A DNA stretch of 64,000 nt from positions 1,240,001 through 1,304,000 of the forward strand of contig NZ_LT906479.1 of the NCBI RefSeq assembly GCF_900187015.1, in the 5' to 3' direction. This document shows, piece by piece, positions 11,238 through 58,215 of the stretch. Source of the DNA: Serratia ficaria (GTDB taxonomy: Bacteria; Pseudomonadota; Gammaproteobacteria; Enterobacterales; Enterobacteriaceae). The translations under genes and the position numbers were made by a program. How positions within the stretch are numbered: the first letter of the stretch is position 1; the number at the start of each line of letters is the position of its first letter. Under the pieces are notes generated by a model that searched no databases, was not told the DNA's origin, and saw only the letters and a list, made by a program, of their open reading frames with translations.

Positions 11238-11717
11238 TCAGTCGCGCTTGGCGATGTCGGCGAAGCTGCCGGCCAACAGCCGGCACAGATCCTCGGCCGC
11301 CAGTTCGATATCGAGCCCGCGTTTGCCGCCAGAGACATAGATGGTGGCGAACGTTTGGGCCGGGCTGTCGATCACCGTCGGCAGCCGTTTCTTCTGCCCC
11401 AGCGGGCTGATGCCGCCCACCAGGTAACCGGTGACGCGCTGCGCCAGCTGCGGATCGGCCATGTCGGCCTTCTTGGCGCCGAGGGCGCGGGCGACCTTTT
11501 TCAGATCCAGCTGAGTGGCGACCGGCGTGACCGCCACCGCCAGGCGCTTGGCGTCGCCGTTCAGCGCCACCAGCAAGGTTTTATAGACCCGATCGGCATC
11601 CAGCCCCAGCTTGCGCACCGCTTCGTCACCGAAGTGGGTTTCGTCGCTGTCGTGGTGATAGGGATGAAGGGTAAATGCGACCTGTTGTTTTTCGAGCAGA
11701 ACCACTGCGGGCGTCAT
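11238..11717 (-). CDS. ybaK: Cys-tRNA(Pro)/Cys-tRNA(Cys) deacylase
   Basis: YbaK is a 159-aa trans-editing protein that hydrolyses Cys wrongly attached to tRNA-Pro, working with prolyl-tRNA synthetase. It is a single YbaK/EbsC domain with the conserved stretches [20 protein letters not shown] (about 24-43), [10 protein letters not shown] and [14 protein letters not shown] (about 94-107). The ATG at 11717 is the only suitable start. It is transcribed away from chiX and is placed as in E. coli. Confidence 0.94.
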
Positions 11718-11863
11718 GATGTTTTTTCCAAAATGTCCCCGGCGAGGGGGGCTTGCGGCGGTAAAGGGTAAAAATACAAAAATAGCGTCCGGTCGGCAAG
11801 CTGGGCGGCTGTTACATAAAGCGAGTTGCCAAGGTGTTCACCGGGTTGCTACCCTGTCTCTTG

Positions 11864-11949
11864 TAACCGTTAACACGGTTGCTATGCGTATAACTAGAAT
11901 ACAAGAAATTCCTCTTTGACTGGCCAATAGCGATATTGGCCACTTTTTT
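11864..11949 (+). ncRNA. chiX: ChiX (MicM/SroB) small RNA
   Basis: ChiX is an Hfq-dependent small RNA that represses chitoporin and chitobiose genes by pairing near their ribosome sites. The 3' half, AAATTCCTCTTTGACTGGCC followed by the AATAGCGATATTGGCCA hairpin and a TTTTTT tail, is nearly identical to E. coli ChiX. A 5' hairpin AACCGT-TAAC-ACGGTT is also present. It sits between ybaK and ybaP exactly as in E. coli. A promoter TTGCCA (11825-11830), 18 bases, TACCCT fits a start near 11864; the 5' end is an estimate. Its terminator touches the last bases of the convergent ybaP. Confidence 0.93.
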
Positions 11950-12760
11950 ATGGCTGCGGCTGCGGCTGCAGCATCGCCGGCAAGTTATCCTCGCCGTACA
12001 GATGCAATGCGCCTACCGCCACCACGTAGTCGCCGGCCGGCAACGCCTCGAGCTTTTGCCGCCAGTCGCGGTTGCGTTGATGCATCAGCACATCGTACAG
12101 CCCGGCGCTGAAGGTGGCGGGCAGCGTTTCCAACCCGCCGCTGGGCTTGGCGTCGAGCCACCAGCTCACCATGGTCTGCAGCAGCCGCGCATTGGTGTGC
12201 CAGTGCTCCAGCGTATCGCGCAACAGCGCGATGCCGCCTTCCGGCAGCTGTTCCAGCATCGCCAGCTGCTGCTGCGCGCCTTCCAGTTCTATCACCTTTT
12301 TGTCCTGCGCCCTGGCCGCCTGCAGCAGCTGGTAGTCCACGCCGTACTCGGCGCGCAGCCCCAGCCGCTGAGCCTGGCGCGCCTGCATCATCAGCGCCAC
12401 CTGCCAACCCGGCAGGGTCGAGAACGACCGGGCGTCGGCGCCCAGCTCCCGGCACAGCGCCAGCAGCCGGTGGAATTCCTCGCTGGACAGGCGCTCTTCA
12501 AGCGTCGGCTGCAGTTCGGCATGGTCGAACGGCGAGGCGGAGCCGGTGATGTCGGCCTCGACGATCAGCGCGTCGGCCTGCTGCAGGCGAGCGGCCAGCC
12601 TGGCCGGCAGCGGCGACATGTCCACCGTGCCCATATGAATGCTGCCGACCAGATGCAGCCGACGATCGCCCGGCAGGCTGATGTCCAGCGCCGGGTAGGC
12701 ATAGCGCATCGGGGCGATCAGGCCGAGAAAGGCGGCGATGCGGCGTAACAGTTGACCCAT
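11948..12760 (-). CDS. ybaP: TraB/GumN-family protein YbaP
   Basis: A protein of the TraB/GumN (Tiki-like) family with unproven metalloprotease-like activity. The start at 12760 gives 270 aa and follows AGGAG at a good distance; the frame is open to 12814 but the extra residues are not conserved. Family marks are LVGSIHMGTVDMSPLP near residue 33, LRAEYGVDYQLLQAA mid-protein and the C-terminal VVAVGALHLYGEDNLPAML with its conserved His. It is transcribed convergently with chiX and overlaps its terminator by about two bases. Confidence 0.92.
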   Translation of the reverse strand: MGQLLRRIAAFLGLIAPMRYAYPALDISLPGDRRLHLVGSIHMGTVDMSPLPARLAARLQQADALIVEADITGSASPFDHAELQPTLEERLSSEEFHRLLALCRELGADARSFSTLPGWQVALMMQARQAQRLGLRAEYGVDYQLLQAARAQDKKVIELEGAQQQLAMLEQLPEGGIALLRDTLEHWHTNARLLQTMVSWWLDAKPSGGLETLPATFSAGLYDVLMHQRNRDWRQKLEALPAGDYVVAVGALHLYGEDNLPAMLQPQPQP

Positions 12761-35598: not shown

Positions 35599-35675
35599 TT
35601 TTCACTTCTCTCAACGTCTACTAAAGTCCACTCATCCCCAGTAATCCTAGTATTCTCCAAAAATCTCATTCTACC
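35584..35675 (+). repeat. Left attachment region (attL) of the argU element
   Basis: The tRNA 3' end CTGTAGGGC (35584-35592) and a 64-base block (35612-35675, from CAACGTCTACTAAAGTCC to TTCTACC) recur at the right end (58141-58149 and 58152-58215). The 64-base blocks differ at three positions. The 19 bases between the two parts here are shortened to 2 at the right. Confidence 0.85.
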
Positions 35676-37123: not shown

Positions 37124-38191
37124 ATGAAATCAGAACTCAGAAGTACAGAAGAACTGGACCTGGAAATAGAAAGAGTTTGCAAAAATATAACTGAAAGCTA
37201 TGATTTTTTTGATTACATCAGAGGTTTTGATTTTGGTGTAAAGGATGTTTTGAAGAATATAGATGTCATTAGGTATGATGAGATTACTAAGGATTTTGAT
37301 GGAATCCAGTTTTATGTGGCATTTAAGAAAAGAATAGAAATATTAGCATCTATTGAATATGCTAAAAGACTTGACTCTGAGAGTTACGAAATGTATTTGT
37401 CTGATTTCACTGATGATGAAATTTTAGATGATGTTACATCCTACCCTGTTCCAGAAGAGGATTTTTATGATGGAATAAAGGATGATGTTAGACGTGAACT
37501 GATGGATACATCTATATTTTTAGAAAAAATTTTTTATGGTGATGCCGTAAAAATCACGAGCGATGACTTAAAGTATGCAAATGATTGGAGAGCTAAGACG
37601 ACAATAAATGCAATTGATATGTCTCGTATAGCTTTTTTAAATAGATACGGTGGTTTTATGGGAGGGATGGATAATAAGGAGTACAATGAGGTCATTGGAG
37701 ATGTGCTAAAGGAAAACGCCAGCATTGAAACTGTGAAGAAAGCTAGAGAGATACCCTTTGGATATGGATGGGAAGAAGGAGGCATAGGAAAGTCTACAAT
37801 TTGGGCTGAAATTGATCTTAGCGCCCCCGATGAAATACTATTTGAAGGTTTCAAAAACTGGATTGGTCATGCACGAGAAATGCATGGGAATGTATTTGAT
37901 AAAAAAGTAAGTAAAGGTAAGGTGAAAAGTAATTTCAAACCATCCCTTATAAAAAGATGGAAGGTTCTTCGTGTATTAGCTTACTTTGATATGAAAATTT
38001 TGTCTTCATTTTTTCATCAAAGCCCGACTCTAAAGCAGTACGGTGATGCTTTATACTTTGATGAATATGATGTCGATACTACCGAAAAAGTTAGGAAAAC
38101 GCTGATTCCGATAGTGCAGGATGTTGTGGATGGAGACTGCCTTGATAATCTGATGCAGAAAGTTATTGCGGAAGACAAGATTCCAAAATAA
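37124..38191 (+). CDS. AT-rich 355-aa cargo protein (possibly DUF6387 family)
   Basis: I do not recognise a function. The protein is acidic, has no signal or membrane segment, and contains segments such as AEIDLSAPDEILFEGFKNWIG near residue 230 that remind me of the DUF6387 family found beside integrases. Codon use is strongly AT-rich (many Ile, Lys, Asp, Asn), unlike both the chromosome and the rest of the element, so it is a recent import. The start at 37124 follows GAGGTGGCG. It sits in the integrase-proximal cargo slot, where satellites often keep defence genes. That role is inference. Confidence 0.8.
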   Translation: MKSELRSTEELDLEIERVCKNITESYDFFDYIRGFDFGVKDVLKNIDVIRYDEITKDFDGIQFYVAFKKRIEILASIEYAKRLDSESYEMYLSDFTDDEILDDVTSYPVPEEDFYDGIKDDVRRELMDTSIFLEKIFYGDAVKITSDDLKYANDWRAKTTINAIDMSRIAFLNRYGGFMGGMDNKEYNEVIGDVLKENASIETVKKAREIPFGYGWEEGGIGKSTIWAEIDLSAPDEILFEGFKNWIGHAREMHGNVFDKKVSKGKVKSNFKPSLIKRWKVLRVLAYFDMKILSSFFHQSPTLKQYGDALYFDEYDVDTTEKVRKTLIPIVQDVVDGDCLDNLMQKVIAEDKIPK

Positions 38192-53169: not shown

Positions 53170-53351
53170 ACCATAAAACTATAGAACAGACCATTGCCCT
53201 TTTGGCCAAAGAGAACGGCGTCACCTTGGATCGGAAGGACATGCTAGAGCTGCGCACAAGGGTTGCTATGACATTGGCAGCGAAGGAGCGACATCGCCAG
53301 AGGATGAACTCACCGACATACCATTGGAAGAAGTCAGGGAGTTTAAGATGA
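53163..53351 (+). CDS. Hypothetical 62-aa element protein
   Basis: A basic helical protein (TIEQTIALLAKENGVTLDRK; RTRVAMTLAAKERHRQRM) whose start lies inside the end of the HGGxSTG gene. No domain is known. It is the last gene of the tail-linked group. Confidence 0.65.
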   Translation: MLDHKTIEQTIALLAKENGVTLDRKDMLELRTRVAMTLAAKERHRQRMNSPTYHWKKSGSLR

Positions 53352-53658
53352 GTTTCGTTTAATGGATTGATTTTTTTGTAATAATTATAAGGCGTGGAAA
53401 AAAAAACGATACCGCATAAGCGAAACAGAAAACGATTCAGAAAACGATTTTTCTGTCCATGTAGGTGTATGGTGGTGTTGTTTGACGCACTACAAAGCCA
53501 TTGAGCGCATTTTAAGACAATTTACGGTAAACAAAACGAACGGTCTACGTTGAAAGATTACCATTAAGGTAATACACTTCACAAAAAAGAGAGGGGGGAT
53601 TGGAAGGTCACTCTCATACCTAATGGACTGAAGAGCCTTGCGTTGTTGAGGATTAATT
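53352..53658. other. AT-rich promoter region of the peptidase cassette
   Basis: No gene is seen. AAAACGATTCAGAAAACGAT contains a short direct repeat (about 53420-53449). ATTACC-ATTAA-GGTAAT at 53557-53573 is a perfect 6-5-6 palindrome, a possible operator. GC content drops sharply from here to 55.3 kb. Confidence 0.55.
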
Positions 53659-53937
53659 ATGAAATTTGTAACTATACAGTCGTCAGCGCTGCCGGAAATC
53701 ACGGAGCTTGTCAAAGAGTGTGTGAACCTCGGGCAGTGGTTGCTTTTTAAGGCGCATTCTGAGGATGCTAATGTTTTTTTCTATCTTAAAACAGATAAAG
53801 ATCTATATGCTTTAGGTAAGAGTGGGAAAGTTTTGACATCAACTCCTGTAGAAGGTGTTGAAATGAATGAATTATATTATTTCTCTGATATACCTAAACC
53901 AATTTCCCTGAGTAATGCTATTGCATTTAAACATTGA
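53659..53937 (+). CDS. Unknown 92-aa protein, first gene of the peptidase cassette
   Basis: I do not recognise it. It is AT-rich in codon use, without signal peptide, and looks like a small alpha/beta protein (SALPEITELVKECVNLGQWL; VFFYLKTDKDLYALGKSGKV). The start follows GAGGATTA. It lies 35 bases before the caspase-like peptidase gene on the same strand, so it may be its regulator, sensor or substrate; that link rests on position only. Confidence 0.75.
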   Translation: MKFVTIQSSALPEITELVKECVNLGQWLLFKAHSEDANVFFYLKTDKDLYALGKSGKVLTSTPVEGVEMNELYYFSDIPKPISLSNAIAFKH

Positions 53938-53972
53938 TTTCTTAATGTGTAGCGTTGTAAAAGGGGCTGTTT

Positions 53973-54863
53973 ATGAAATTAAGAAGTCAAAGAACAAAGT
54001 GGATCTTGTTTTTATCAAGTTCAAATGCTGTTCCAGAGTTTCGACACGTAGTTGATCTTGTATTCGGTTTAATGTGCTTGGAGCGTTCGGGTGTTCGTCC
54101 TCAGGATATATTTATTTATGTTGATGGGCCAACTGACCTTTTGGAAAAGGTTTTTTCACTAGGAACGGTAAACCGATATGAGATTAAATCTTCCGAAGAA
54201 TTTTTCAACGACTCGACACAAAATGTATATGAAAACTTAGTGATGTTTATCACTGGTCATGGTAGCCCCAATGGTATTGATGCTGGTGAAGACATCACGC
54301 CCAATAGACTTGTTAGTACTTTAAAAAATATCCCTGGTCTGAATAACGCAATTGTATATCTAGGGCAGTGTTTTGCGGGGCTATTTAATTATGTCAATGC
54401 GGCTAAAGGTAAAGAAGGTGTTGATATAATTTTTATTGGTGCAACAAACCTTCATGAAAGCCTTAGCCACCCAACTTCAGAAGATTTCATCTCCGGTCCC
54501 TTTCCTTGGCCTGCCAACCTGTTTTTGCTACATGTATTTAAATGGATTTCCTCCCCTACTGATGTAGACGGTGATGGACGAGTGACGGTGATGGATTCTT
54601 ATAAATATGCAGGTGTTCATGCGAATATGCATAATAAGCAGTTCAAAACTCAAAGCTTCATCGATATGTTAGATCAGCATCAGGCATACAAAGTACTGCA
54701 TGAAAGAGTTCAAGCCCCCACAGGAGATCCAAGTATAGATATGGATAATCAACTCAACTTAGAGGCAGCACATAATAAATATCAAAATAGTCTTTCTGCA
54801 CATTATGTTCACCAAGAATGTTGGATTTTGAACTCAATTCCCGCTCAGCGAATTGAGTTTTAA
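53973..54863 (+). CDS. Caspase-like (C13/legumain-type) cysteine peptidase
   Basis: A 296-aa protein with the catalytic layout of clan CD peptidases: His96 in VMFITGHGSPNG and Cys133 in YLGQCFAGLF, each after a hydrophobic strand. A DxDxDGxVxxxD loop at 197-208 (DVDGDGRVTVMD) matches an EF-hand/dockerin calcium site, which bacterial C13-like proteins often carry in this place. The N-terminus (KWILFLSSSNAVPEFRHVVD) fits the first strand of the fold. No signal peptide. AT-rich codon use marks it as imported cargo. Caspase-like proteases appear as effectors in several anti-phage systems; this role is inferred. Confidence 0.82.
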   Translation: MKLRSQRTKWILFLSSSNAVPEFRHVVDLVFGLMCLERSGVRPQDIFIYVDGPTDLLEKVFSLGTVNRYEIKSSEEFFNDSTQNVYENLVMFITGHGSPNGIDAGEDITPNRLVSTLKNIPGLNNAIVYLGQCFAGLFNYVNAAKGKEGVDIIFIGATNLHESLSHPTSEDFISGPFPWPANLFLLHVFKWISSPTDVDGDGRVTVMDSYKYAGVHANMHNKQFKTQSFIDMLDQHQAYKVLHERVQAPTGDPSIDMDNQLNLEAAHNKYQNSLSAHYVHQECWILNSIPAQRIEF

Positions 54864-54865
54864 TT

Positions 54866-54970
54866 ATGGCTGATTCAATACATGTTTCTTTTTTAACATG
54901 GAGCATCCTATTTTTATTGGCTTTGGGTATCAACTGGAAGCGTTTTGTGTGTGAGTGTAGGTTTTCTTAA
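54866..54970 (+). CDS. Possible 34-aa membrane peptide following the peptidase
   Basis: The frame starts two bases after the peptidase stop and encodes one membrane helix (SFLTWSILFLLALGINW), then a basic, Cys-containing tail (KRFVCECRFS). No clear ribosome site, so translation would depend on coupling to the peptidase gene. It could be a membrane-acting effector or chance. Confidence 0.42.
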   Translation: MADSIHVSFLTWSILFLLALGINWKRFVCECRFS

Positions 54971-55350
54971 ATTATTATTGATTGTTATATGCATGCTGAT
55001 TTGTCGGTTTTTTTTAGTCGTAAATATAAATAAGATGTTATGCTAGTTAATCATTCAACAAGAAATGGAAAGGGTTTATAACACCTATATTTTGCAAAAA
55101 TAATCACATAGCGACAGAATAGCACCAAAAACTAGTATTAAGCATAACAAACCCACATGAGTGGAATTCTATTTTGCTATCTATAATACTTCAACGATGG
55201 GGGACCGATTTCCTTATGCACTGGATATAAGTGCCCGCATGTATCATGATACTGGCTAACTACCTTTTCGTTATACTGATGTGAAAATGGCTAGACTTAC
55301 CGTGAAGCCGTGCTGCTGTAGTACGCATAACGGAATGGCGAAGTTAGGAC
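54971..55350. other. AT-rich stretch between the peptidase cassette and the insertion sequence
   Basis: About 380 bases without a gene I can support. A 21-codon frame at 55286 is too short to judge. No terminator hairpin with a U-run is obvious. A copy of the dispersed GAGTTTT...CATAAAAAA motif begins at 55351. Confidence 0.45.
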
Positions 55351-55388
55351 GAGTTTTCGGAGGCCATAAAAAATCTATGGTCACCCCC

Positions 55389-55648: not shown

Positions 55649-56653
55649 TTATTGGCTAAATACGGTGCGATGCGCCGTCACCGCCCAGGCTATCCGTGCC
55701 AGCTTGTTCGCCAGTCCACAGGCCACCACATTCGAGTGATGCCGTGTCAACTGGACCTTCACCCATTCAGCCAGACGCCCCGGGTGATGTTCAAGTCGCT
55801 GCATAAAGGCCCGCGCACATTGAACCAGCAGGCGGCGCAGATTTTTATCTCCCCGCTTGCTGATGCCCATCAGCGTATTTTTCCCGCCGGTGCTGTATTG
55901 CCGCGGGACCAATCCCGTCGATGCCGCAAAGTCCCGGCTGCCGACATAGTTTTTCCCGTCGCCCAGCTTTGTGGCCAGCAGGCTGGCGGTTATCATGCCG
56001 ACACCGGGGATGGTCAGCAGACGCTGCGTAGCCTCGTCATCCGCCATATGCGTTTTTAACTCTTGTTCGAGTCCCTCAACCTGCTCGCTGAGATAGGTGT
56101 AATGTTGCTGGAGGCGCATAAGCAGCCGGGTTAAATAAGGCGGGAGTGAATGCTCTTCAAGTACCGCAGCCAGGCGTCGGATAACGGCCGTTCCTCGCGG
56201 CATGCTGATGCCAAACTCAAGCAGAAAGGCGTGCATCTGATTGGTGGTTTTGACCCGTTCTCTGACAAGAGGATCCCGGACGCGATGCAGCGCCGCCATC
56301 GCCTGTTGGTCTTCGGTTCTCGGCGTCACGAAGCGCATAGAGGGGCGTGAAGCGGCTTCGCAGATGGCTTCAGCGTCGATGAAGTCGTTCTTGTTGCTCT
56401 TGACGAATGGCCGGACAAACTGGGGCGAGATGAGTTTAACCTGATGGCCGAGCTGAGTGATATGGCGCGCCATAAAGTGAGCGCCGGCGCAGGACTCCAT
56501 GACGACGGTGGCTGTGCTGCAGGTGGAAAGAAAAGCGGTGAGCTGGGTACGGGAAAACTTCTTGCGCAACAGAGCGTGGCCGTTTTTATCCTGAGCGTGG
56601 ACATGGAAGGTATGCTTGCCGAGGTCGATACCGATAAGTGTGATGTTTTGCAT
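55649..56653 (-). CDS. IS110/IS1111-type transposase (DEDD)
   Basis: A 334-aa recombinase: the N-terminal RuvC-like DEDD domain begins ITLIGIDLGKHTFHVHAQDK with the first Asp, and includes VMESCAGAHFMARHI and KSNKNDFIDAEAICEA. The C-terminal Tnp20 domain has LLTIPGVGMITASLLATKLG and the serine region FAASTGLVPRQYSTGGK. Start at 56653 after AAGGGG; the open frame upstream crosses the terminal repeat. Confidence 0.93.
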   Translation of the reverse strand: MQNITLIGIDLGKHTFHVHAQDKNGHALLRKKFSRTQLTAFLSTCSTATVVMESCAGAHFMARHITQLGHQVKLISPQFVRPFVKSNKNDFIDAEAICEAASRPSMRFVTPRTEDQQAMAALHRVRDPLVRERVKTTNQMHAFLLEFGISMPRGTAVIRRLAAVLEEHSLPPYLTRLLMRLQQHYTYLSEQVEGLEQELKTHMADDEATQRLLTIPGVGMITASLLATKLGDGKNYVGSRDFAASTGLVPRQYSTGGKNTLMGISKRGDKNLRRLLVQCARAFMQRLEHHPGRLAEWVKVQLTRHHSNVVACGLANKLARIAWAVTAHRTVFSQ

Positions 56654-56724
56654 GATGATCCCCTTCGAAAAGAAAAACACCCTGCCAGCGTACCGCTCAC
56701 AGGGTGGGGGTGACCATCTCATTA

Positions 56725-58140: not shown

Positions 58141-58215
58141 CTGTAGGGCCCCAACGTCTACTAAAGTCCGCTCATCCCCAGTAATCCTAGTATTCTCCAA
58201 GAATCTCGTTCTACC
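58141..58215 (+). repeat. Right attachment region (attR) of the argU element
   Basis: CTGTAGGGC (58141-58149) then CC and the 64-base block at 58152-58215 match the left end. Three single-base differences and the missing 17 bases suggest an old or chimeric junction. Backbone-like genes resume after this point. Confidence 0.82.

Follow-up and report, generated by a model that had tools for sequence, protein, structure and literature searches.

A mobile two-gene module of a legumain-like cysteine peptidase and a constant small partner in Serratia ficaria, a candidate for superinfection defence

The window (the whole stretch of 64,000 nucleotides of Serratia ficaria DNA that was analysed) carries three consecutive reading frames on one strand, encoding proteins of 92, 296 and 34 aa (Table 1). 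A preliminary description of this DNA had placed these frames correctly and had read them as an AT-rich, three-gene cassette. The base composition is borne out, since the two larger genes have 38.1% G+C versus 49.5% in the flanks. The gene number has to be corrected, as the cassette consists of two genes and not three. No relative of the 34-aa frame was found in the 75 loci fetched (best E 1.2), and when the downstream DNA was shuffled 5000 times, 7.6% of the shuffles had an ATG frame of this size beginning no more than 60 nt after the stop codon. By reading, its ribosome-binding site is poor, whereas those of the 92-aa and 296-aa genes are good. Based on the missing relatives and the shuffle frequency, the 34-aa frame was rejected as a component, and the role that had been suggested for it as a membrane peptide is unsupported, with no counterpart in any of the 75 loci.

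Table 1. Positions in the window of the two genes, their conserved residues and the surrounding features.
Feature	Positions	Strand	Basis
Small partner protein, 92 aa	53659..53937	+	phrog_30138 (E 3.6e-27), 116 homologues
Asn86 codon, SLSN near partner C-terminus	53914..53916	+	kept in 114/117
C13-like (legumain-like) cysteine peptidase, 296 aa	53973..54863	+	profile matches, conserved dyad
His96 codon, predicted catalytic	54258..54260	+	121/121
Cys133 codon, predicted nucleophile	54369..54371	+	121/121
EF-hand/dockerin-type loop, residues 197-208, DVDGDGRVTVMD	54561..54596	+	four Asp 121/121; presumed consensus
34-aa frame, probably outside the system	54866..54970	+	0 relatives in 75 loci; 7.6% of shuffles
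Variable cargo slot of the element	53333..55327	.	comparison with same-genus genome G023
Weak promoter-like site TTGAAA-17-TACACT	53550..53578	+	palindrome 53557-53573 inside spacer

The palindrome that had been pointed out in front of the cassette, the inverted repeat ATTACC-N5-GGTAAT, is present at 53557-53573, but the special status given to it did not hold: when the same 170-nt leader was shuffled 200 times, 22.5% of the shuffles had a best inverted repeat that equalled or exceeded it. The exact repeat with at most one mismatch, a pattern chosen post hoc, has an expected count of 0.05 for the window and occurred in 5 of 100 shuffles, and promoter-like sites of the type that surrounds it number 5 versus 8.1 expected. 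Inverted repeats also stand 70-110 nt before the small gene in several of 18 leaders. They differ in sequence and most are within the shuffle range, the strongest being those of two close relatives (L003, 0.015; L018, 0.01). The palindrome was therefore rejected as a significant operator, since it does not go beyond the leader shuffles. A link to SOS was rejected as well, a LexA-like site being found in 1/18 leaders (L004).

Conservation of the 296-aa protein was followed in 121 sequences, made up of the window peptidase and the best 120 of its 260 homologues. The assignment of His96 to TGHG and of Cys133 to GQCFAG is correct and both residues are invariant (121/121); His96-Gly97 with Cys133, the hallmark of the clan CD dyad, is kept throughout the set. 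Arg24 (121/121) and Asp28 are also invariant, and His25 is present in 119/121. The Pfam model Peptidase_C13 matches the window protein with an E value of 3.4e-4 and 20.7 bits, under its curated cut-off of 22.8, and matches 9 of 23 family members at E up to 1 (best 2.8e-6). A profile of 23 homologues recovered 20 PDB sequences at E up to 1, every one of them named legumain, asparaginyl endopeptidase, vacuolar processing enzyme or asparaginyl ligase. The best of these has a whole-sequence E of 6e-5, its two single stretches scoring 0.066 and 20. A profile of 54 homologues gave 19 matches of the same kinds (best 2.3e-4). The blocks that align to the legumains are the N-terminal T-K/R-W...RHxxD and the stretch from GHG to the Cys. 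Of the caspase-like peptidase originally proposed, clan CD stands, whereas the nearest solved relatives are legumains (C13) and not caspases. Judged by its profile matches and motifs, the 296-aa protein is a predicted clan-CD cysteine peptidase nearest to the legumains, and it is very probably active. Its closest homologue among the matches listed is from Serratia marcescens (96% identical).

The peptidase has at residues 197-208 a sequence, DVDGDGRVTVMD, that perfectly fits what we take to be the consensus of the EF-hand/dockerin loop, and Asp197, Asp199, Asp201 and Asp208 are each kept in 121/121. The Pfam EF-hand model matched 1 of 23 members, weakly (E 0.22). Such a loop was not seen in the stretches that align with legumains; Ca2+ is required by several clan-CD families (PMC4357240). 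The S1 pocket of AtLEG-gamma contains an Arg-His pair with Glu217 and Asp269 at its bottom (PMC5995516). The pair is kept here as Arg24-His25 and the Asp269 position is not alignable, but the position of Glu217 is taken by Gly131 in 119/121 sequences. Because of this glycine, Asn as the P1 residue is uncertain for this enzyme, which we call legumain-like and do not file as a legumain. The window peptidase is also unlike legumain in being encoded with a small partner. In its C-terminus, Asn287 (WILN-S/A-x-P) is another residue kept in 121/121.

The 92-aa partner belongs to a family of unknown function in PHROG (Table 1). Among the window protein and the homologues recovered by a profile search, Asn86, in the motif (P)xSLSN near the C-terminus, is kept in all but three sequences, two of which are truncated before this residue while the third has an unrelated C-terminus. 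The Asn is retained even in relatives of less than 30% identity that have lost the rest of the motif. The tail that follows is variable in sequence and in length (2-15 residues), and its P2' residue is mixed, with no clear hydrophobic rule. Since the P1 residue of legumain is Asn (PMC4357240), the tail of the partner may mark a cleavage site; it could equally be a docking end. Pfam gave only scattered single matches among sets of 38 and 37 members of the small-protein family, and a 37-sequence profile searched against the PDB reached gamma-crystallins at E 0.25. A protease inhibitor with a crystallin fold exists (SMPI), and a crystallin-type inhibitor was considered for the small protein and dropped in view of the missing Pfam support.

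That a small upstream protein is linked to the peptidase was part of the preliminary description and is supported. We collected 32 records (31 loci and the window), leaving out L034-L037 (contigs of L015, L017, L023 and L029), L008 (the window) and L009 (an incomplete match). In every one of the 28 that hold DNA upstream of the peptidase (all except L006, L024, L025 and L027), the small gene is found there, at a spacing that ranges from a 10-nt overlap to 56 nt apart; the 28 include near-identical records, and in a few cases a single strain may be represented in two collections. The small gene is still upstream in L033, where the peptidase is 33% identical. When viral contigs were scanned with the small protein, 4 and then 18 loci were recovered, all of them on contigs that carry the peptidase (4/4 and 18/18). 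In addition, 40 of the 116 small homologues share their longest-contig size with one of the best 120 of 260 peptidases, versus a mean of 0.6 and a maximum of 3 in shifted controls. The divergence of the two proteins is correlated (r 0.92, 25 pairs, 0/5000 permutations), as expected of two genes that travel together on the same DNA. In the frame listings of the fetched loci, the neighbourhood of the pair shows no conserved third gene. The co-occurrence that the preliminary description had wanted checked by a homology search holds for the 92-aa protein and the peptidase, and fails for the 34-aa frame. We are nearly certain that the small protein and the peptidase constitute a two-gene functional unit.

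In the window, the pair is carried by an element of approximately 22.5 kb that adjoins a tRNA-Arg gene, with 64-nt direct repeats at 35612-35675 and 58152-58215. The related element of genome G023, from the same genus, matches the window up to 53332 (97.5% over 804 nt) and resumes at 55328-55373, with about 950 nt of different DNA between the matching flanks. This slot in G023 (L052, 6637-7105) holds another cassette, of an 83-aa and a 70-aa frame on the strand opposite to the element genes, and neither gene has a match in Pfam or PADLOC. Between 35612 and 58215 the window element encodes an integrase, an Ant-like protein, a DNA primase and tail proteins (tape measure, tail chaperone), and no capsid or large terminase gene was seen among its scanned frames; tail genes alone are unusual in an element that is satellite-like or decayed. 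It had been compared with satellites of P4 type, and its combination of a DNA primase with tail genes makes it something other than a canonical P4. An AT-rich gene of 355 aa adjoining the integrase (37124-38191; DUF6387, E 7.8e-14) may be a second cargo, and an IS110-type transposase gene lies downstream of the cargo slot (55649-56722).

Elsewhere the pair is found in quite different surroundings. It is AT-richer than its flanks in 32/32 places, by a mean of 12 points (some of the places are near-identical). In lambdoid prophages of E. coli it occupies the interval before hokD, and two prophages without the pair have 2 nt at this site versus 1407. In L002, a satellite-like element of E. coli, its neighbours on either side are genes of the opposite strand with an annotation as capsid fusions; this element also bears a gene with an annotated HEPN domain (11327-12040). 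Another carrier, the E. coli prophage L003, carries one gene annotated as an ADP-ribosyltransferase and another as a subtilase-type AB5 binding subunit (11425-12643). The neighbours of the pair include an integrase (L025) and a DUF6246 gene (L014). The surroundings of L005 and L007 appear by reading to be ordinary chromosome with no prophage seen nearby, and a pyruvate dehydrogenase gene beside the pair in L005 was confirmed. The base composition and the empty or refilled sister sites agree with the earlier claim of mobile-element cargo: the pair is mobile cargo in variable slots of prophages and satellites.

The pair occurs in 24 of 5426 complete E. coli genomes (groups of 12, 11 and 1, two of the 11 bearing one strain name), and IMG/VR contigs yielded 24 loci. 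With the window peptidase as query, no match was obtained in 50,697 phage or 72,556 plasmid records, which fits cargo of lysogens yet leaves no studied phage; queries with divergent members in two further viral scans recovered only themselves. Searches in samples of the relatives (1/99), of the order (1/394) and, with either protein as query, of the class (1/369) returned in each case the window's own genome, and the second hit in the phylum sample (2/398) is a match over 52 positions (E 3.8e-4). Among the matches listed, homologues are named from Serratia, E. coli, Klebsiella, Vibrio, Pseudomonas, Xanthomonas and Burkholderia, nearly all as hypothetical or uncharacterized proteins, the exceptions being ‘caspase family protein’ and ‘Peptidase C13 family protein’. 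In keeping with the supposed undescribed system, the three window proteins match no family of PADLOC-DB 2.0.0 at E up to 10, and nothing in NCBIfam at E up to 1. Searching NCBIfam with 54 peptidases gave 11 families with one member each (best E 0.015), which we take as chance matches. Among the titles and abstracts listed from the open-licence PMC literature, none reports the pair, and the words caspase, protease and legumain are missing from the main text of the hotspot paper PMC9122126. Ten neighbour or cargo genes that were scanned included no clear known defence gene and one weak CasR match (E 0.0075).

Proteases that protect lysogens are known. Lit, of prophage e14, blocks superinfecting phage by cutting a host factor; it is another type of protease, encoded by a single gene and triggered by a phage peptide. 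The pair would resemble Lit in its way of working only, as a prophage-borne protease, and differs in protease type and gene number. In Canu, a bacterial anti-phage caspase-nuclease system in which CanA complexes with CanB, a clan-CD protease is likewise encoded alongside other genes (PMC12799240). As described there, Canu combines an MBL-type nuclease with an Ig-like fold, neither of which was seen in the pair, and no Pfam match to either was found in the peptidase family. The clan-CD proteases of Type III CRISPR, gasdermin/CARD, NLR and Thoeris systems (PMC12799240) share with ours the clan and a mobile immune setting, whereas the partner described here matches no Pfam sensor or effector family.

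We propose that the pair is a conserved two-gene cargo module, a legumain-like peptidase with a constant small partner, that serves in superinfection defence, a reading that we hold to be evenly balanced. The pairing, conservation and mobility of the module and its conserved dyad are direct observations. A superinfection-defence or abortive module is the best fit to a protease that has a constant partner, occupies variable slots of prophages and satellites and was not found among sequenced phages; for an anti-phage or superinfection role as such, we lean slightly in favour. Points against this reading are the lack of any clear known defence gene among the ten neighbour and cargo genes scanned, the seemingly chromosomal copies L005 and L007, and the peptidases interrupted in 5 of 15 E. 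coli prophage copies. By stopping other phages, the module would benefit the resident element as well as the host. In the healthy lysogen, the peptidase would be kept inactive or without substrate. Infection would free it, perhaps because Ca2+ rises or because the partner senses a phage product. Its target could then be an essential protein of the host or the phage, or else the partner, cut after Asn86, and growth of the infected cell would stop. The partner could be a protease inhibitor, an infection sensor or a substrate. That it is a direct regulator or substrate of the peptidase we consider likely, and cleavage after Asn86 is doubtful. Asn86 and the Ca2+-type loop are nonetheless the two features that every mechanism must explain. 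Both would be accommodated by a mini-legumain immune switch, a speculation that we consider quite unlikely, in which the partner is sensor and substrate in one. Ca2+ entering the infected cell would load the EF-hand-type loop and the partner would be processed after Asn86, either releasing the tail or transferring the partner onto another protein, as legumain-type ligases can, and the cell would be stopped.

The constant pairing, with the small gene upstream of the larger one as in type II toxin-antitoxin pairs, could also be that of an addiction module, with a peptidase that is toxic by default and inhibited by the small protein, made first from the leading gene, so that the element is stabilised without any phage sensor. 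This would agree with the distribution of lesions. Among 15 copies in E. coli lambdoid prophages, five have an interrupted peptidase (IS1 insertions in two, frameshifts in three) and none an interrupted partner, and L041 and L030 add two further interrupted peptidases. However, gene length alone gives seven of seven lesions in the peptidase a chance near 0.13, so the bias does no more than hint at a greater cost of the peptidase than of the partner, and truncated small homologues (P0225 and P0234, their peptidases unseen) exist. Overall, we regard addiction as unlikely.

The many copies in prophages and satellites, one of which (L010) is approximately 0.9 kb from a Cro/YdaS-like gene, could instead suggest a protease of the element's own cycle that cuts a repressor or other regulator and so controls induction or excision. 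Such a function is difficult to reconcile with unrelated slots in unrelated elements, with sister elements that do without the module, and with the two copies seemingly outside prophages (L005 and L007), and we judge it very unlikely. Counter-defence, in which the module is made on infection or induction and destroys a host immune protein, is more improbable still. It would suit the three E. coli prophages in which the pair lies, by reading, in the early region among accessory genes, but not the L002 copy, on the strand opposite to the adjoining satellite genes, nor the lack of any match in the phage records.

Protease-based immunity is already known; a pair of a legumain-like peptidase and its partner is absent from the libraries and listings searched. 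The clan-CD immune proteases so far described come with other parts, including a nuclease (PMC12799240), and the present pair, two genes in about 1.2 kb, shows none of those known companion parts. A defensive role would make it a minimal immune system based on a protease. Thanks to Asn86 and the invariant Ca2+-type loop, two purified proteins would suffice for a direct test of its mechanism. Were the mini-legumain switch true, Ca2+-gated asparaginyl proteolysis would serve as antiviral immunity in prophages and satellites.
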